DNA from: Halorubrum tebenquichense DSM 14210
GTDB lineage: Archaea > Halobacteriota > Halobacteria > Halobacteriales > Haloferacaceae
DNA length: 51,356 nucleotides
Direction of reading: 5' to 3'
Assembly: GCF_000337415.1 (NCBI RefSeq)
Contig: NZ_AOJD01000027.1
Span: 141,054 to 192,409, forward strand
Numbering within the stretch: the first letter of the stretch is position 1; every line of letters starts with the position of its first letter. The notes under the pieces were generated by a model. That model did no database searches. It was not told the DNA's origin and saw nothing but the letters and a program-made list of their open reading frames with translations. Of the stretch, positions 13,038 through 22,565 are shown one piece after another. The position numbers were made by a program, and so were the translations under genes.

Positions 13038-14036
13038 TTACAGCCGGTCGACGACCGCCGCGGTGACCTCGTCAGTCGTCGCCGAGCCGCCGAGGTCGCC
13101 GGTGCGCGGCCCGTCCGAGAGGACGCCTTCGACCGCGTCGCGCACGCGCTGTCCCTCCTCGACGTGGCCGAGGTACTCGACGAGCATGGCCGCCGAGAGG
13201 ATCGCCGCGGTCGGGTTCGCGACACCCTCGCCCGCGATGTCGGGCGCGGTGCCGTGGACCGGCTCGAACAGCGCGTTGTCGTGACCGACGTTCGCCGAGG
13301 GGAGCAGCCCGAGCCCCCCGACGAGCCCGGCGGCGAGATCGGAGAGCACGTCGCCCGCGAGGTTCGGGCAGACGATCACGCCGTACTGCGTCGGGTCGAG
13401 CGGGAGCTTCGTCGCGAACGCGTCCATCAGCTCCTCGTCGGCGTCGACGCCGCGCTCCGCGGCGACCGCCAGCACCTCCTCGCGGAAGCGCCCGTCCGTC
13501 TCGCGCATCACGTTCGCCTTGTGCGCGACGGTGAATCCCTCGTCGTGGTCGCCGGCGGGACCGCGACCGTCTTCGACGAACTCGCAGGCGTACTCCGCCA
13601 GCTCGCGCGAGGCCGACGAGGTGACGACCCGCGTCAGTGTCGAGAGATCCTCGGAGAGCCGGTCCTCGTGGCCGGCGTAGACGCCCTCGGTGTTCTCGCG
13701 GAGGAAGACCACGTCCGTCTCCGGTCGGAGCGCGTCGACACCGGGGTACGCCGTCGCCGGCCGAACGTTGACGAACGAGTCCACCGCCTCCCGCAGCGGG
13801 AGGATCACGTCGGCCGCCGTCTCGCCGGCCGCGCCGAACAGCGTCGCGTCCGCGTCCGCGGCGAGGTCGTACGTCTCGGCGGGGAGCGCCTCCCCCGTCC
13901 GCTCTTTCACCGCGTCGCCCGCGTCGGCCGCGACGAACTCGAAGTCGACGGGGAGCGCCTCCAGCACCTCGACGGCGGCGGGGACGACCTCCTTGCCGAT
14001 CCCGTCGCCCTCGATGACGACGACCTCGTGGCTCAC
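13038..14036 (-). CDS. leuB: 3-Isopropylmalate dehydrogenase
   Basis: LeuB, 332 aa, oxidises and decarboxylates 3-isopropylmalate to 2-ketoisocaproate with NAD in leucine synthesis. Family motifs: [14 protein letters not shown] at the N-terminus, [12 protein letters not shown] (substrate arginine/glutamate loop), [13 protein letters not shown] (catalytic Lys), and [26 protein letters not shown] with the metal-binding aspartates. [15 protein letters not shown] is the adenine-binding loop. The start is GTG, overlapping the leuD stop by four bases (GTGA). It is the last gene of the ilv-leu operon. Confidence 0.95.
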
Positions 14037-14689
14037 GCCCCGTCCCCCGGGACGTCCTCGGCCGGCACGTACGGCAGCGACCGGGCGGTCTCGCGGACCG
14101 CGCCCTCGTTCGCGCCCATCAGCGCCGTGGTGTCCCAGACGCCCTCGACGAGCGCCTTCCGCTGGGCGTCGTGGACCGTCGCGTCGATCGTGGTGTCGCC
14201 GTAGGTGACCGTCTCGGCGGCCACGTCGATGTCGACCTCGGCGTCCGGATTGGCCTCGACGTAGTCCTGTAGCGCCTCGATGTCTTCCTGGTCGGCCGTG
14301 ACCGTCGGGACGCCGAGCGCGAGGCAGTTGCCCGCGAAGATCTCCGCGAACGACTCGCCGACGACCGCGTCGATCCCCCAGCGCATCAGCGCCTGCGGGG
14401 CGTGTTCGCGGGAGGAGCCGCAGCCGAAGTTGGCGTTGACGACCAGAATGTTCGCGCCCCGGTACTGCTCCTCGTTGAACGGGTGGTCCTTCTCGTTGTC
14501 CTCGTCGTCGAACCGCTGGTCGAAGAAGGAGAACTGGCCCAGCCCGTCGAAGGTGACGACCTTCATGAACCGCGCCGGGATGATCTGGTCGGTGTCGATG
14601 TCGTTGCCCCGGACCGGGATCCCGGTCCCGGAGACCTCGGTGACCTTCTCCGCCGGGGCCTCGCCGTCGCTGAACTCGGGCGAGCTCAT
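14033..14689 (-). CDS. leuD: 3-Isopropylmalate dehydratase small subunit
   Basis: LeuD, 218 aa, the swivelling small subunit that combines with LeuC to isomerise 2-isopropylmalate to 3-isopropylmalate. Motifs: [16 protein letters not shown] near the N-terminus, and [19 protein letters not shown], the substrate-binding loop shared by aconitase-type small subunits. [15 protein letters not shown] follows. It overlaps leuC upstream (ATGA) and leuB downstream (GTGA), showing tight coupling. The length is normal for the full-size bacterial/haloarchaeal type. Confidence 0.95.
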
Positions 14690-16107
14690 ACGGTCGCCAC
14701 CTCCTCCATCTCGCGGACGTCGGTGACCTCGCCGGTCACCGCCGCGGCCGCGACCATGATCGGACTCATCAGCACGGTGCGCCCGTCCTTCGAGCCCTGC
14801 CGGCCGACGAAGTTCCGGTTGGAGGAGGAGGCGCTCGCCTCGTCGCCCTCCAACTGGTCGTCGTTCATGCCGAGACACATCGAACAGCCCGGCTCCCGCC
14901 AGTCGAAGCCGGCCTCTTTGAACACCTCGTCAAGCCCCTCGGCCTCGGCGGCGTCGCGGACCCGCTGGCTGCCCGGGACGACCATCGCGCGCACGTCGTC
15001 GTCGACCTCGCGGCCCTCGACGAACGCCGCGGCCTCGCGGAGGTCCTTCAGCCGCGCGTTGGTACACGAGCCGAGGAACGCCACGTCGATGTCGTACCCC
15101 TCCATCGTGTCGCCGGGCTCGACGCGCATGTGCTTCTGTGCCCGCTTCGCGGTGTCGCGGTCCTCCTCGGGGAGGTCGTCGGGGTCCGGGATCGGCTCCG
15201 TGATCCCCGCGGTCTGTCCCGGGGTCGTGCCCCACGTCACGGTCGGTTCGATCGCGGAGCCGTCGATGGTGACCACGTCGTCGTACTCGGCGTCGCCGTC
15301 GGTCCGGATCGACTCCCAGTAGGGTTTCAGCCGCTCGAACGCCTCCGGATCGTCCGCGAAGGCGTCGGTCCCCTTCAGCCACTCGTAGGTGGTCTCGTCC
15401 GGGTTGACGTAGCCCGCGCGAGCGCCCCCCTCGATCGACATGTTACAGATGGACATCCGGCCCTCCATCCCGAGGTCCTCGATGGCCTCGCCGGCGTACT
15501 CGTACACGTAGCCGACGCCGCCGTCGGTCCCGAGCTTTCCGATGATCGTGAGGATGATGTCCTTCGCGGTGACGCCCTCGCCGAGCTCGCCCGTCACCTC
15601 GATCCTGCGGACCTTCTGTTTCTCCATCGCGACGCAGCCGGTCGCTAACACGTCGCGGATCTGCGAGGTGCCGATGCCGAACGCCAGCGCGCCGAACGCG
15701 CCGTGCGTCGACGTGTGCGAGTCGCCGCAGACGATCGTCATCCCCGGCTGGGTGAGCCCCTGCTCCGGGCCGATGACGTGGACGATCCCCTGATCGCCGG
15801 AGTCCGGGTCCGAGAAGTCGATCCCCGAGCCGCGGACGTTCGCCTCCAGCTCCGCCATCATGCTCTCGGCGGCCTCGTCGCGGTACGGGCGGTCGCGGTT
15901 GCCGGTCGGCACGATGTGGTCGACCGTCGCGTGCGTGCGCTCCGGGAACGCGACCTCCTGTCCGCGCTCCTTCAGCATCCCGAACGCCTGCGGGCTGGTG
16001 ACCTCGTGGACGAGGTGGAGCCCGACGAACAGCTGGTCCTGTCCGGTCGGCAGCCGCGTCACCTTGTGGCGGTCCCACACCTTGTCGTACAGCGTCCCCT
16101 CGCTCAT
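14686..16107 (-). CDS. leuC: 3-Isopropylmalate dehydratase large subunit
   Basis: LeuC, 473 aa, carries the 4Fe-4S cluster and active site of isopropylmalate isomerase. Cluster ligands are in GSCTNARL and in GCSMCLGMN (CxxC) near the C-terminus. [23 protein letters not shown] is a hallmark of the aconitase superfamily. The N-terminus [11 protein letters not shown] is typical of bacterial-type LeuC. The start overlaps the stop of a 27-codon ORF (ATGA) that lies between ilvC and leuC. Confidence 0.96.
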
Positions 16108-16187
16108 CGGGGATCACCCGCGTGGCGCGTGGGATTCGGGGAGCCCGCGGTCTCGCCGGAGCGGTTCGCGTCGGCGCGTACGCCCAT
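16104..16187 (-). CDS. Possible 27-aa coupling ORF between ilvC and leuC
   Basis: A 28-codon ORF starting [15 protein letters not shown]. Its ATG overlaps the ilvC stop (TGATG) and its TGA overlaps the leuC ATG. No domain is recognised; composition is polar and basic, unlike the acidic neighbours. The double overlap suggests ribosomes pass through it between ilvC and leuC, so it may matter as a translation bridge more than as a product. Confidence 0.42.
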
Positions 16188-17245
16188 CAGGCGGTCACCT
16201 CGGCGCTCTCCTCCTCGTCGTCCTCCGCCGACTCCTCCCACGAGAACAGCCCGCGGAGCTCCTCGCCGACGGCCTCGATCTCGTGGTTCTTCTCGGCGGT
16301 CCGGAGCTGGGTGTAGGAGGGGCGTCCCGCCTGGTTCTCCGCGATCCACTCGCGGGCGAACTGGCCGTTCTGGACCTTCTCTAAGACCTCCTCCATGTTC
16401 TCGCGGGCGTGCTCGTCGACGACCACGTCGCCCTGCGTGAGCCCGCCGTACTCGGCGGTGTCCGAGACCGAGTCCCACATCTCGCCGAGCCCGCCCTCGT
16501 ACATCAGGTCGACGATGAGTTTCAGCTCGTTGAGACACTCGAAGTACGCCATCTCCGGCGAGTAGCCGGCGTCGACGAGCGTCTCGTACCCCTGCTTCAC
16601 GAGCGAGGTGACGCCGCCACAGAGGACGGCCTGCTCGCCGAACAGGTCGGTCTCCGTCTCCTCGCGGAACGACGTCTCGACGACGCCGGCGCGGGTACAG
16701 CCGATCGCGGCCGCGTACGCCAGCCCCTCGTCGTGGGCGTCGCCGGTCGCGTCCTGGTACACCGCGAGCAGGCCGGGGGTCCCCTGGTCGCTCTCGTAGT
16801 TGCGGCGGACGAGGTGGCCCGGCGACTTCGGCGCGACCATCGTCACGTCGACGTCCTCCGGCGGCTGGATCTGGTTGTAGTGGATGTTGAACCCGTGCGC
16901 GAACTGGAGCGTGTCGCCCGCGTCGAGGTTCGGCTCGACCGCGTTCTCGTACACGTCCGGCTGGACCGTGTCGGGGACGAGGACGCTCACGATGTCGGCC
17001 TCGGCGGCGGCGTCCGCGGGGGTCTCCACCCGGAGTCCGTCGCTCTCGGCGGCGGGCCGCGAGGAGCTCCCCTCGCGGAGGCCGACGATCACGTCGACCC
17101 CGCTGTCGGCGAGGTTCTGGGCGTGAGCGTGGCCCTGCGAGCCGTAGCCGAGGACGGCCACGGTCTTGTGCGCGATGGCCTCCTCGTCCGCGTCGTCGTC
17201 GTAGTATACTGTCGAATCGAACGTCTGCGTGTCGTCGTCGGTCAT
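16187..17245 (-). CDS. ilvC: Ketol-acid reductoisomerase
   Basis: IlvC, 352 aa, converts acetolactate or acetohydroxybutyrate by alkyl migration and NAD(P)H reduction in valine/isoleucine synthesis. The Rossmann fingerprint is [15 protein letters not shown]. The knotted C-terminal domain shows [19 protein letters not shown] and the metal-binding [18 protein letters not shown]. The length fits class I KARI with acidic extensions at both ends. It starts 41 bases after the ilvN stop; its stop overlaps the 27-codon ORF. Confidence 0.96.
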
Positions 17246-17286
17246 GTGTATCGTTGTGGGTTCGCGTGTTCGCGTCTGTCTTCGCG

Positions 17287-18030
17287 TCAGTCGTCGTGTG
17301 TGGTCGGTTCGCCGGCCGTTCCGGGCTTCTCTCCTGGCGCGGTCGGGGTGTTGCCGCGCGCGAGGGCGGTCGGCCCCGTCCGCGCGATCTCGACGATGCC
17401 GAACCGCTCGAACGCGCCGATCGCGTTGTCAACGTCGGCCTTGTCGCCGGTGAGCTCGACGGTGATCGTCTCCGGGCCGGCGTCGACCGTCTTCCCGTCG
17501 TACATCTCGGAGACGGCGTGGACCGCGGCCGGGTCGTCCGCCTCAACCTTCAGCAGGACCAGCTCCGAGGTGACGGCGTCGCCCGCGACCTCGCCGACCG
17601 AGATCACCGGCTTCAGCTTCGCCATCTGCTTCTCGATTTGGTCGATGCCGGGGTCCGTCTCCTCGACGACCATCGTGATCCGCGAGTGGCCGTCGACGGT
17701 CGTCGGCCCGACGGTGAGGCTCTCGATGTTGAACTGCCGCCGGGAGACGAGCCCGGAGACGCGCGCGAGCACGCCGGGCTCGTCCTCAACGAGCGCGGAG
17801 ATCACCGCGCGCCGCGACTCGTGTTCCGCCTCGACGACGGGGTCGATCCGGATCCCTTCGAGGTTCCGCCGCCCCTCGGGGTGGTCCCGATCCCGCGGTC
17901 CGGGCTGCTCGCTCGGCATGGGCCGGGAGTCGGTCTCCGGACCCTCGCCGGCTGCGGAGCCGCCGTCGGTCGCGGGTCGGGGATCGGTCGCCTTCTCGTC
18001 CGCTCGGTCGTCGGGCGAATCGCCGCTCAT
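17287..18030 (-). CDS. ilvN: Acetolactate synthase small (regulatory) subunit
   Basis: A 247-aa regulatory subunit of acetohydroxyacid synthase. An acidic, probably disordered N-terminus of about 70 residues precedes an ACT domain ([32 protein letters not shown]) that in the family binds valine for feedback inhibition. A second domain follows ([40 protein letters not shown]). A C-terminal tail of about 30 residues is low complexity. It overlaps the ilvB stop by four bases (ATGA), ensuring matched production of the two subunits. Confidence 0.94.
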
Positions 18031-19838
18031 AGCTGGTCCTCCGCGGTCGCGAACTTGCCGTTCGCGCCGCCGCTCGGCACCATCGGCAGGACGTTCTCCT
18101 CGGGGTCGACGTGGAAGTCGACCACGGCCGGTCCGTCGTAGTCGAGCGCCTCCTCGACGGCGGGGGCGACCTCGTCGTAGTCGTCGACGCGCAGGCCAAG
18201 GGCTCCGAACGCCTCCGCCAGCTTGTCGAACTCGGGCATCCAGCTGTACTCGGAGGCCATGTGGCGGCCCTCGTAGAACGCGTCCTGCCACTGCCTGACC
18301 ATCCCGATGTACTCGTTGTTGAGCACGGCGATCGTGACGTCCAGTTCCTCGCGGACCGCGACCGACAGCTCCTGCATCGTCATCAGGAAGGAGCCGTCGC
18401 CGTCGAAACACACCACGTCGCGGTCGGACTCCCCCATCGTGTCGGCGGCGACGCGCGCGCCGATCGCGGCGGGCACGCCGTAGCCCATCGTGCCGAGCCC
18501 GTGCGAGGAGACCCACGTCCGCGGCTCCGAGTACGACCAGAACTGGGAGGCCCACATCTGGTGTTGCCCGACGCCCGTGGTGACGATGGTGTCGTCGTCG
18601 GTCGCCTCGTCGAACGCCTCGACGACGAACTGGGGTTTCAGCGGCTCGTCGTCGGGTGTCGCGTACGTGAGCGGGTACGTCTCCTTCCACTCCGCGCAGC
18701 GCTCGCGCCACGCCCCGGCGTCGGGGGACTCACGGACCGCGGCGGTCAGCTGGTCTAAGACGCGCCCGGCGTCGCCGACGAGCGGGTAGTCGGCGTAGAC
18801 GTTCTTCGAGATCTCCGCGGGGTCGATGTCGACGTGGATCACCTCAGCCTCGGGCGCGAACGTGTCGATCCCGCCCGTGAGCCGGTCGTCGAACCGCGTG
18901 CCGACCGCGATCAGGCAGTCGGTGTGAGTGATCGCGAGGTTCGCGTAGCCGGTGCCGTGCATCCCCGCCCACGAGAGCGAGAGGTCGTCGTCCTCGGGGA
19001 ACGAGCCGATGCCCGGCATCGTCGTCGTCACGGGGATCCCGTAGCTGCGGGCGAACGTCCGCGCCTCGTCGCTCGCGTCGCCCTTGATGACGCCGCCGCC
19101 GAACAGACAGAGGGGGCGCTCGGCCGCCTCGATGGCTCGCGCCGCTTCCTCAACCGCCTCGGCGTCCGCGTTCGGGTCGGGGTCGGTTCCCGCGGGCGGC
19201 GTCGCCGGCCCGGGCGTCCGGTCGGTCTCGTCCTGCGTCACGTCCTTCGGCAGGTCGACAAGCGTCGGGCCGGGCCGGCCGGCCCGCGACAGCTCGAACG
19301 CCTCGCCGACGGTGTCACCGACGGTGTCGGCCCCGCCGGCGAAGTAGTTGTGTTTGGTGATCGGCCGGGTGACGCCGACCGTGTCCGTCTCCTGAAAGGC
19401 GTCGTTGCCGACGAACTCCGTCGGGACCTGTCCGGTCAGCGCCAGCATCGCGTCCGAGTCCATGTCGGCGTCGGCGATGCCGGTGACGAGGTTCGTCGCC
19501 CCCGGACCGGAGGTGGCCATACAGAGGCCGGGCTCGCCGGCGACGACGCCGTACGCGTCAGCGGCGTGGGCCGCCCCCTGCTCGTGGGCCATCGTCACGT
19601 GCCGGATCGACGAGTCGTACAGGGCGTCGTAGACGGGCATGATCGCCCCGCCCTGAACGCCGAACGCGGTCTTCGCGCCCGCCGCCTCGAGGGCGGCGAC
19701 GACCGACTCAGCGCCGGTCGAAACGGGTCCCGCGGGCTGTTCGTCGTCCGGGTCGGTCGGGTCGTCGGCCGCGGCGTCGGCGGACGAGCCGTCCGCCTCG
19801 TCTCCGTCGGACCGCGGCTGTGCTGCTGTGTCGCTCAT
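18027..19838 (-). CDS. ilvB: Acetolactate synthase large (catalytic) subunit
   Basis: A 603-aa thiamin-diphosphate enzyme joining pyruvate to pyruvate or 2-ketobutyrate, the first common step of valine/isoleucine synthesis. The catalytic glutamate is in HVTMAHEQGAAHAADAY, the FAD-binding middle domain follows (GGGVIKGDAS onward), and the ThDP/Mg motif is GDGSFLMTMQELSVAV with NNEYIGMV. An acidic N-terminal extension of about 45 residues precedes the domain start. It is the first enzyme of the operon; its start lies 175 bases downstream of the stop of the leader peptide ORF. Confidence 0.96.
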   Translation of the reverse strand: MSDTAAQPRSDGDEADGSSADAAADDPTDPDDEQPAGPVSTGAESVVAALEAAGAKTAFGVQGGAIMPVYDALYDSSIRHVTMAHEQGAAHAADAYGVVAGEPGLCMATSGPGATNLVTGIADADMDSDAMLALTGQVPTEFVGNDAFQETDTVGVTRPITKHNYFAGGADTVGDTVGEAFELSRAGRPGPTLVDLPKDVTQDETDRTPGPATPPAGTDPDPNADAEAVEEAARAIEAAERPLCLFGGGVIKGDASDEARTFARSYGIPVTTTMPGIGSFPEDDDLSLSWAGMHGTGYANLAITHTDCLIAVGTRFDDRLTGGIDTFAPEAEVIHVDIDPAEISKNVYADYPLVGDAGRVLDQLTAAVRESPDAGAWRERCAEWKETYPLTYATPDDEPLKPQFVVEAFDEATDDDTIVTTGVGQHQMWASQFWSYSEPRTWVSSHGLGTMGYGVPAAIGARVAADTMGESDRDVVCFDGDGSFLMTMQELSVAVREELDVTIAVLNNEYIGMVRQWQDAFYEGRHMASEYSWMPEFDKLAEAFGALGLRVDDYDEVAPAVEEALDYDGPAVVDFHVDPEENVLPMVPSGGANGKFATAEDQL

Positions 19839-20005
19839 TGTCGTGGTGGTGTTCGGTGTGGCATCTGGCGGGTTGTCGAGTCGGTCGCTGGGAACGCGGG
19901 ACGAGCGGGGCCGCGCCGCGCCTGTCGGGAGCGCGGGTACGTCCGTCGGAAACGGCCCGGCCGCCGGCGTTCGGCGGTGCGTCGCGTCGGTGAGGAAGGG
20001 GTGGT

Positions 20006-20025
20006 GTAGGGGATCAGACCCCTAC
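20006..20025 (-). promoter_or_regulatory. Hairpin at the stop codon of the ilv leader ORF
   Basis: GTAGGGG-N6-CCCCTAC is a perfect 7-bp stem in the ilv leader RNA. The 5' arm covers leader codons Val22, Gly23 and the first base of Val24; the loop contains the leader stop codon. A ribosome at the end of the leader ORF would cover the 5' arm and open the stem. No U-tract follows, so it is not a standard intrinsic terminator. Confidence 0.55.
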
Positions 20026-20088
20026 AATGATCGGCGCGACGGCTGCGGGAACGTCCGCTCGCTCCGCGACCGCGGTGTGCCGTCGCAT
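20014..20088 (-). CDS. Putative ilv-operon leader peptide (24 aa)
   Basis: A 25-codon ORF in the 5' leader of ilvB-ilvN-ilvC-leuCDB. It begins MRRHTAV and ends VAPIIVGV. Seven of 24 codons are Val or Ile, five of them in the last eight, the amino acids the operon makes. The TTTATA box at 20114-20119 sits 31 bases before this ATG, so the operon mRNA should start at or within a few bases of it, making this the first thing translated from a leaderless end. Its stop lies in the loop of a perfect hairpin. This matches the logic of amino-acid attenuation leaders known in bacteria; function here is inferred. Confidence 0.6.
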   Translation of the reverse strand: MRRHTAVAERADVPAAVAPIIVGV

Positions 20089-20111
20089 CTCGCTCGGAGC
20101 AACGCGGCCGG

Positions 20112-20121
20112 GGTATAAATT
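20112..20121 (-). promoter_or_regulatory. TATA box of the ilv-leu operon
   Basis: Minus-strand AATTTATACC, with TTTATA 31 bases before the leader ORF ATG at 20088. This is the only strong promoter-like sequence between leuA and ilvB. The 364-base gap between those genes holds this promoter, the leader ORF, the hairpin and a GC-rich untranslated stretch of about 170 bases with no other gene visible. Confidence 0.65.
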
Positions 20122-20202
20122 CCTGTCGGGGAGCGCGAACCGACTCCGCCGACGACCGCCGTCGCGGTCGCTCGGGGGGCGCTCCGGTCGCGGAGGCGGC
20201 CA

Positions 20203-21424
20203 TCAGACCCGGACCTCCTCCTCGCGCGCCACGTCCGCCTCCTCGGCGAACCGCTCGACGTCGCCGGCCGTCACCCGCCGCTTGCCGGCTCCGTACTCCT
20301 TGACCCGCTTCGTGATCGACCGGACCTCGCCGTCCGTCGGGTCGAAGCCGGCCTCTACCAGGTGCTTGCGCACGCTGTGGGTGCCGGTGTGTTTGCCCAG
20401 CACGAACTCGCGTTCGGCCCCGACCATCTCCGGGGTCATCACGCCGGTCTCGAACGTGTCGCTGTTCTCGATGACGCCGGCAGCGTGGATGCCCGACTCG
20501 TGGGCGAACGCGTTCCGCCCGGTGACGGGCTTGTTCGCCGGGACCGGGATGTCCGAGGCCTCCTCGACGATCCGGGCCAGCTTGGTGATCTGGGTCGTGT
20601 CGATGCCGGTGTCGACGCCGTACACCGACTCGACGGCCATCACAACCTCCTCGTAGGCGGCGTTGCCGGCGCGCTCGCCGATCCCGTTGACCGACACCTG
20701 CGCCTGCTCCGCGCCGTTCTCGAAGCCGGTGACGGCGTTGGCCGCGGCCATCCCGAAGTCGTCGTGGGTGTGGACGTCGACGCGGGCGTCGGTCGCCTCG
20801 ACGACGGCCGCCACGGTCTCGCCGAAGCTGGTCGGCATCCCGACACCGCAGGTGTCCGGGATGTTGATCCAGTCGGTGCCCGCGTCGGACACCGCCTCGA
20901 CGATGTCGATGAGGTAGTCCGGGTCCGTCCGCGTGGCGTCCATCGGCGAGAACATACACTCGACGCCGGCGTCTTTGACCGTCTCGACGGCGTCGACCGC
21001 GCGCCCCTTCGCCTCCTCGCGGGTCGCGTGCATCGAGTCCTCCAGCTGAACGTCGCTGGTGGAGACGAACACGTGAACCATCTCGACGCCGGAGTCGATG
21101 GCGGCCTCGATATCGCCCTCGACGACGCGGGCCAGCCCGCAGACGGTGGTGTCCGTCGCGGCGGCGATGTCGCTGACGGCCTCGAACTCCGCGTCCGAGT
21201 TGACCGGGAACCCCGCCTCGATGACGTGGGTGTTCATGTCGTCCAGCGTCGCCGCTATGCGGCGTTTCTCGTCGTAGCTGAACGAAGTACGTGGTGACTG
21301 TTCTCCGTCTCGCAGGGTCGTGTCGAAGATCCTGACAGGACCGATTTCGACGTTAGAAGCTATCGTGCCCTGGAAGAACTCGATCCGCCGGGGTGTCCGA
21401 CGAAGCCTCCGTGATGTCTGTCAT
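20203..21424 (-). CDS. leuA: 2-Isopropylmalate synthase (citramalate synthase-like), with an apparent one-base frameshift near the 5' end
   Basis: LeuA/CimA-type enzyme condensing acetyl-CoA with a 2-keto acid. The catalytic start RIFDTTLRDGEQSPRTSFSY is encoded from about 21330. Further motifs are HTHDDFGMAAANAV (metal ligands), VNGIGERAGNAA, and LGKHTGTHSV. This frame has no ATG, GTG or TTG between the stop at 21421-21423 and the catalytic motif; the first ATG (21237) would delete it. A leaderless ATG at 21424 opens MTDITEASSDT in the other frame. Removing one base in the G run at 21390-21393 joins both into a 406-aa protein. So there is a sequencing indel, a mutation or frameshifting. At 406 aa it lacks most of the C-terminal leucine-sensing domain of the long bacterial form. 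Confidence 0.85.
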
Positions 21425-21444
21425 CGGTTCACGACAAGACGGTC

Positions 21445-21455
21445 GGGTACTTAAC
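21445..21455 (-). promoter_or_regulatory. TATA-like box of leuA
   Basis: Minus-strand CCGTTAAGTAC, with TTAA about 30 bases before the ATG at 21424, the same spacing as other leaderless genes here. This supports 21424 as the true leuA start. Confidence 0.55.
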
Positions 21456-21537
21456 GGTTTGGACGATCGCAAAATCGGAGCCGACCGGCAGTCGAGACCG
21501 ATGTGGAGCGAGATCGACAAATCGCTAGACGGAAGCG

Positions 21538-21620
21538 ATGTCAATACTCCTTAAGGAGGTAATACACACACCGGAGATCCGACGCGTATTCCGATCCGGA
21601 AGCCAGTTAATAAGTGGAAT
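21538..21620. other. AT-richer stretch upstream of leuA with a 12-bp palindrome
   Basis: The 337 bases between leuA and the ABC ATPase hold no clear gene. Within it, CTCCTTAAGGAG (21547-21558) is a perfect palindrome. On the minus strand its AAGGAG sits 7 bases before an ATG at 21544, whose frame is open down to and continuous with the MTDITEAS start at 21424. TTAATAAGT at about 21608 is a further TATA-like site. This could be an upstream promoter, an operator, or an alternative Shine-Dalgarno start for leuA. Confidence 0.35.
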
Positions 21621-21761
21621 CGACGTTCGTTTCGTTCGGTCCCCGGGCGGCTCGCGGCTCGCGCGCGGCGAGTCAGCGACCCGCACGGCGACCGGATCCC
21701 GAGCCGCGCGGAGACCGGACCCCGACTTCCGGGACGGTCCGGGTCGGGGGCTGAACCGCCC

Positions 21762-22565
21762 TTACCGCCCGAGCGCGTCCGTCACGTCGCGCCGGAGTTC
21801 GACCAGATCCGGGTCCGCCCGCTCGCGGGGACGGTCGATGTCGACGTCGACGACCGCCTCGACCGAGCCGGGCTGGCCGCCGAGCACGACGACGCGGTCC
21901 GCGAGGTACACCGCCTCCTCGACGTCGTGGGTGACGAGGACGACGGTCGTCCCCCGCTCCTCCCACACGTCGAGCAGGTGGTCCTGCTGGTCGGCCTTCG
22001 TCAGCCGGTCGAGCGCCGAGAACGGCTCGTCCAGCAGCAGCACGGAGGGGTCGTACGCCAGTCCGCGCGCGAGCGACACGCGCTGGGCCATCCCGCCGGA
22101 GAGCTGGTCCGGGCGGCTCTCCGCGAACCCGTCGAGGCCGACGGTCTCGATCAGTTCGTCGACGCGCTCGCGGGCGGCCGGCGCGTCGGGGTCGACGCCG
22201 GCCGGGAGCCCGACCGCGACGTTCTCGCGCACGTCGGCCCAGTCGAGCAGCCGCGGCTCCTGGAACACCATCCCCACGTCGTCGCTGCCGCCGTCGCGGA
22301 CGTCGGTGCCGTCGACCGCGACGCGCCCGGCGAACTGCGGTTCGAGCCCCGAGAGCACGCGGAGCAGCGTCGACTTCCCGCAGCCGGAGGGACCGACGAC
22401 CGCGACGAACTCCCCGTCGGCGACCGCGAGGTCGACGCCGTCGAGCGCGACCGTGTCGTCGTACCGCTTCCGGAGCCCGTCGACCGCGAGGACGGGGTCC
22501 CCGGTCGACCCGGCGGCGGCCTTGCCGGCCGGGGGCGCGGCGTCGGCGTCAGCGTCCGACGACAC
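21762..22565 (-). CDS. ABC transporter ATP-binding protein (nitrate/sulfonate/taurine type)
   Basis: A 267-aa ATPase of the SsuB/TauB/NrtD group. Walker A is VVGPSGCGKSTLL (about 56-68), the signature LSGGMAQRVSLARGLAYDP, and Walker B LLLDEPFSALD. Its switch histidine is in VLVTHDVEEAVYLADRVVVL. The N-terminus carries an acidic/alanine-rich extension of about 22 residues. It overlaps the permease gene upstream by 17 bases. It is the third gene of a binding protein-permease-ATPase operon. The substrate group is inferred from family resemblance; sulfonates, nitrate, pyrimidine-like or other small compounds are all possible. Confidence 0.92.
   Translation of the reverse strand: MSSDADADAAPPAGKAAAGSTGDPVLAVDGLRKRYDDTVALDGVDLAVADGEFVAVVGPSGCGKSTLLRVLSGLEPQFAGRVAVDGTDVRDGGSDDVGMVFQEPRLLDWADVRENVAVGLPAGVDPDAPAARERVDELIETVGLDGFAESRPDQLSGGMAQRVSLARGLAYDPSVLLLDEPFSALDRLTKADQQDHLLDVWEERGTTVVLVTHDVEEAVYLADRVVVLGGQPGSVEAVVDVDIDRPRERADPDLVELRRDVTDALGR

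Follow-up and report, generated by a model that had tools for sequence, protein, structure and literature searches.

What regulates synthesis of the branched-chain amino acids in Halorubrum tebenquichense DSM 14210, and does the short open reading frame (ORF) upstream of its ilvB gene take part in this regulation? We asked this for a 51,356-nucleotide (nt) stretch of the genome (contig NZ_AOJD01000027.1; referred to here as the window), in which the ilv-leu operon and the other features described below lie on the reverse strand; coordinates are positions in the window. A previous reading of the sequence alone (the sequence-only reading) had proposed that this ORF, rich in valine and isoleucine codons, is a leaderless leader peptide that controls the operon by attenuation, and every coordinate given in that proposal was correct when we rechecked the window sequence. 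From the analysis presented below, we consider it probable that the ilvBNC-leuCDB mRNA begins with a leaderless, ribosome-operated leader-peptide attenuator, which acts through ribosome occupancy and without an antiterminator.

A conserved leader ORF that ends in branched-chain codons

The leader ORF, MRRHTAVAERADVPAAVAPIIVGV, has 24 codons followed by a TGA stop codon (20014 to 20088, with the ATG at 20088 to 20086) and lies inside the 364-nt gap between leuA and ilvB (20203 to 19838). Seven of its 24 codons encode Val or Ile (5 Val and 2 Ile), as had been claimed. We collected ilvB loci by protein searches and then took the upstream DNA, which yielded 129 haloarchaeal loci, including that of the window. 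In 126 of the 129, we found the sequence GTAGGG and a hairpin (P2, described below) in the reading frame of a start codon further upstream, so that the short ORF is decisively conserved among relatives, one of the points on which the sequence-only reading had staked its proposal. Of the 145 Halobacteriales genomes scanned, 137 contain the exact pattern ATYGTAGGGG-N2-9-CCCC, mostly once each, while a reversed-pattern control gave about ten matches in the 145 genomes (~0.07 per genome). This arrangement is not a chance occurrence, since it is found across the order while the hairpin motif occurs a single time, at the leader site, in the window's own 3.3-Mb genome. The phylum's non-haloarchaeal families, sampled through ten regions upstream of ilvB, had no such leader, and the GTAGGG in outgroup locus L169 is a chance occurrence inside another frame. 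Of the three exceptional haloarchaeal loci, one (L142, preceding a second copy of ilvB in genome G337) carries a natural variant, MVEFATFDFAIFRRNSIIGASY, in which the hairpin is TGGGGC...GCCCCA and the GTA codon is missing, and the other two (L125 and L130) are described below.

To describe codon usage along the leaders, we used a set of 71 non-redundant leaders, which also underlies the promoter and hairpin statistics below. When codons are numbered from the hairpin's Val codon (codon 0), a position fixed by the GTAGGG anchor used in collecting the loci, the share of Ile, Val, and Leu codons increases from ~10% at codons -15 to -11 to 51% at codon -6, 56% at codon -3, 99% at codon -1, and 100% at codon 0. 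The last two positions are occupied by Ile in 68 of 71 leaders and by Val in all 71, respectively; in the window, they belong to the control codons ATC ATT GTA (Ile-Ile-Val; 20023 to 20031). A stop codon follows at +3 or +4 in 69 of the 71 leaders, and the peptides end, almost without variation, in I-V-G-(A/V). Thus, the bias toward Val, Ile, and Leu codons anticipated for relatives of the window is present throughout the Halobacteriales.

The codons at the end of the leader are also rare ones. GTA is invariant at codon 0, but the ilvB genes of these loci use it for 0.7% of their Val residues. Similarly, ATT, which makes up 9% of the Ile codons in ilvB, is used in 24 of 37 cases at codon -1 (Fisher P of ~2e-15) and in 14 of 21 cases at codons -2 and -3 (Fisher P of ~5e-10). 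Since codons -2 and -3 sit outside P2, hairpin pairing does not explain the ATT bias at these two positions. Leader length varies from about 15 to 55 codons, and among the 31 Halorubrum-group leaders, the first, second, and third positions of codons 4 to 14 are about equally variable, whereas the IVG end and the two strands of a second stem, P1 (CGA CGG and GCC GTC), are fixed. These differences in constraint demonstrate that codon content and RNA structure, and not the peptide, have been selected.

Two hairpins and the predicted start of the transcript

When folded alone, the window leader forms exactly two structures, P1 and P2 (-42.7 kcal/mol, z score of -2.56), both of which were absent from the earlier account of the window. 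P1 is an 8-bp stem between codons 1 to 4 and codons 16 to 18, supported by both the fold and covariation. Its 5' strand, GCGACGGC (20079 to 20086), begins within the start codon and is invariant in Halorubrum, where the adjoining codons are free to change, and its 3' strand, GCCGTCGC (20036 to 20043), lies directly 5' of the control codons. P2, TGTAGGGG-TCTGAT-CCCCTACA (20005 to 20026), is a perfect 8-bp hairpin with the TGA stop codon (20016 to 20014) in its loop. It is followed by a G-free, pyrimidine-rich tract, CCACCCCTTCCTCACC (19989 to 20004), a candidate termination site.

Because haloarchaeal coding DNA is self-complementary, a plain shuffle test is not sufficient for P1, and we therefore used cross-species and off-site controls. 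In this test, the pairing of each leader's own 5' segment with its own segment from -32 to -4 was compared with its pairing to the corresponding segment from other species of similar GC content. Own pairing was better by a mean of -2.3 kcal/mol (P of ~5e-5; P of ~1e-6 for ORF segment 4 to 18). The signal was confined to the first ~18 nt of the ORF and was gone in control segments -12 to 8 and -90 to -66 and in downstream DNA. Changes of sequence that retain pairing can be seen by comparing the window (GCGACGGC/GCCGUCGC) with locus L082 (CGACAGC/GCUGUCG) and with the Haloferax and Natronocalculus loci L097 and L074.

P2 is present in all 71 leaders, with 5 to 11 bp, a loop of 3 to 14 nt, and a mean z score of -3.5, and it reads GUAGGGG...CCCC, its loop containing or adjoining the stop codon. 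The DNA that follows P2 is poor in G (4% at positions +3 to +16, compared to 24% further on), and T reaches a peak of 45 to 58% at +12 to +14, with U runs in low-GC species only. Intergenic termination sites in Haloferax volcanii are marked by a T stretch with TC, and 503 sites have a hairpin just upstream (PMC7237163). As in these terminators, a hairpin in the leader is closely followed by a T-rich tract with TC, but P2 covers the last part of the leader ORF and has a sequence conserved throughout the order. We also looked for pairing of the P2 5' arm with the leader or downstream sequence and of the P2 3' arm with the leader, either of which could form an antiterminator. Such pairing was poorer than in shuffled sequences (P of ~1e-9 to 1e-11), showing that there is no antiterminator.

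The window has a B recognition element (BRE)/TATA promoter region at 20114 to 20132, with TTTATA at 20119 to 20114 centered 28.5 nt 5' of the ATG, and no further TATA-like motif was seen in the leuA-ilvB gap. Across the loci, the leader starts ~30 nt past such a promoter, and the distance is unchanged in the 2 loci that use GTG instead of ATG. In the 71-leader set, the BRE (purine/A at -37/-36) and the TATA box (-32 to -27) are in a fixed register to the start codon, a sharpness somewhat favored by our method since the choice of start codon was partly guided by the presence of a TATA box, and an AT-rich proximal element is found at -14/-12. This register predicts a 5' untranslated region (UTR) of zero to a few nucleotides. 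The pairing of P1, which begins at the start codon, also supports a transcript start at the leader ATG, so that promoter geometry and a covarying stem both argue for the leaderless start that had been proposed from the window alone.

Proposed mechanism and alternative explanations

We propose that transcription would start at or within a few nucleotides of the leader ATG and that the first ribosome would read the 15 to 55 or so codons up to the Ile/Val/Leu-rich end, with the invariant Ile-Val pair (rare ATY-GTA codons) at the foot of P2, before stopping in the P2 loop. With ample charged tRNA-Ile and tRNA-Val, this ribosome would terminate and depart, P2 would form just behind RNA polymerase at the G-poor, U/C-rich tract, and transcription would end. 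P1 could then refold and hide the 5'-terminal AUG, blocking another round of translation. If Ile or Val, or Leu (which is coded slightly earlier), were short, the ribosome would instead stall at the control codons with its footprint covering the P2 5' arm, so that P2 would not form, polymerase would enter ilvB, and an antiterminator would be unnecessary. The interpretation given in the sequence-only reading is supported by the conserved leader and its codon bias, and attenuation as the output, with termination at the hairpin and control by branched-chain amino acids, is inferred; the lack of an antiterminator departs from the bacterial ilvB and ilvGMEDA systems that had served as its model. 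We lean, somewhat less firmly, toward the view that an attenuator of this kind was already present in the haloarchaeal ancestor, with control codons at the 5' arm of the terminator, occupancy alone blocking termination, and P1 possibly limiting translation to one round.

Several observations weigh against this proposal. Leu codons are frequent in the leaders yet not invariant, though the operon holds leu genes. The hairpin can form only after the ribosome has left the stop codon in its loop, which requires polymerase to be slow or paused there, and GC-rich species lack a U run in the tract that follows P2. P1 is unconvincing in some lineages (for example, at loci L101 and L152). Finally, locus L125 (family f2) has a diverged leader with the residues SIRV and a GGGCC hairpin, and locus L130 (family f5) is a true absence, with ilvB directly after the upstream gene and neither leader nor hairpin.

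Could the peptide itself be the sensor? The near invariance of I-V-G-(A/V)-stop, together with a stop codon three to four codons past the Val in all but two leaders, is consistent with nascent-peptide arrest, in which a C-terminal IVG(A/V) would stall in the exit tunnel on sensing free branched-chain amino acids, in the manner of TnaC, and the stalled ribosome would control P2. We consider this unlikely, because the VG codons double as the P2 5' arm, so that RNA structure alone accounts for their invariance, while at the residues further upstream Ile, Leu, and Val replace one another freely and no sequence is fixed, and the bias toward rare codons indicates decoding speed and not peptide chemistry.

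It is similarly doubtful that leader translation and P2 act on RNA processing, on RNA stability, or on FttA/aCPSF1-dependent termination over the ilvB 5' UTR, in place of termination driven by the hairpin. Archaea do have factor-dependent termination by aCPSF1/FttA (reviewed in PMC8116511), and the G-poor, C/U-rich tract could serve as the landing site of a factor that binds single-stranded RNA. However, the tract is found at a fixed short distance past P2, as in a terminator, and direct hiding of the ilvB start is unlikely since that start is 100 to 360 nt from the leader element.

A DNA operator, in which a transcription factor binds the palindrome and the ORF is incidental, has in its favor the GTAGGGG-N-CCCCTAC dyad of Halorubrum, present about once per genome. 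Both the loop (3 to 14 nt) and the arms (5 to 11 bp) of the dyad are variable, though, and in nearly all leaders it is >50 nt past the start, with its frame constant. It is also accompanied by a stop codon in the loop and by the gradient of branched-chain codons, and P1 covaries as RNA, all of which make an operator very improbable. That the ORF encodes a trans-acting small protein can be set aside almost entirely, since, although it is kept in nearly all sampled haloarchaea, it ranges from about 16 to 55 residues and its codons 4 to 14 in Halorubrum change with little regard to codon position.

The operon and relation to known attenuators

The presumed regulated gene, ilvB (18027 to 19838), encodes the large subunit of acetolactate synthase and scores above the cut-off of TIGR00118. 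The remainder of the operon (13038 to 18030) consists of ilvN, ilvC, leuC, leuD, and leuB, the last of which is below curated family cut-offs, as is the upstream leuA/cimA-type gene (20203 to 21237), included here for context only. In H. volcanii, insertion mutants in ilvB1 or ilvC require Val, Leu, and Ile (PMC4300041), which identifies this operon as the right target for such a leader. The upstream regions of trpD (24 genomes), trpC (20 genomes), and hisG (20 genomes) did not reveal any conserved short ORF containing Trp or His codons, so a general class of haloarchaeal attenuators is unsupported. The element appears to be specific to ilvB except in family f6, where there is a second copy.

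In family f6, the second copy of leader and hairpin (for example, MRQLDTDSHTAPASGGAVGARLIVGV followed by a stop codon) precedes a small ORF and not ilvB (loci L244, on the reverse strand, L245, L246, and L249, each around position 1503). This small ORF ends MADVxHTPPHEAPGANRVFERGNEGRR. Relatives of its HTPP...NRVFERG portion are found inside the ilv-leu operon of many haloarchaea, between ilvC and leuC (loci L274 to L292, around position 1500), often with two related halves in a single small ORF immediately in front of leuC. The ilvC-leuC gap of the window (about 16107 to 16187) lacks this peptide.

A comparison of window positions 18000 to 22000 with 4,227 Rfam covariance models gave no relevant match even at E values up to 1, and a microRNA match was dismissed as chance. 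The leader resembles the bacterial branched-chain attenuators (ilvB/ivbL, ilvGMEDA/ilvL, and leuL of Escherichia coli and ilvBNC of Corynebacterium) in its short ORF rich in codons for the operon's products, its rare control codons, its hairpin followed by a termination-like tract, and its target operon. It differs from them in being archaeal and leaderless, with an mRNA predicted to begin at the AUG, and in having the terminal hairpin's 5' arm made up of control codons, a stop codon in the loop, and no antiterminator. By the canonical standards of the E. coli trp, his, and ilv systems, it has the promoter-proximal short ORF, predicted to be translated, and the enrichment in operon-product codons, but we did not class it as a canonical attenuator because it lacks an antiterminator and has U runs only in low-GC species.

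In Actinobacteria, candidate attenuators and a LEU element have been described in which short ORFs with cognate codons, like that of the haloarchaeal leader, precede ilvB and leuA, and some of these candidates lack parts of a canonical attenuator (PMC1262725). The LEU element is a pseudoknot in which Leu codons pair with the Shine-Dalgarno box of the target, whereas the haloarchaeal P1 pairs within the ORF and the element, 100 to 360 nt upstream, does not pair with the ilvB start.

Peptide-leader attenuation, a textbook mechanism of bacteria, depends on the coupling of transcription and translation. To our knowledge, such coupling has been discussed for archaea but functional consequences of it are scarce. 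Our literature search, which did not take in two key H. volcanii ribosome-profiling and small-proteome studies, found no report of peptide-leader attenuation in archaea, including haloarchaea, in agreement with the sequence-only reading. If our proposal is correct, archaea would have their first demonstrated peptide-leader attenuator in the ilvB leader, which would represent a minimal attenuator design that works without an antiterminator. As a compact element found across the order at one operon, including in tractable species such as relatives of H. volcanii, it would make coupling, leaderless initiation, and archaeal termination testable with a reporter.
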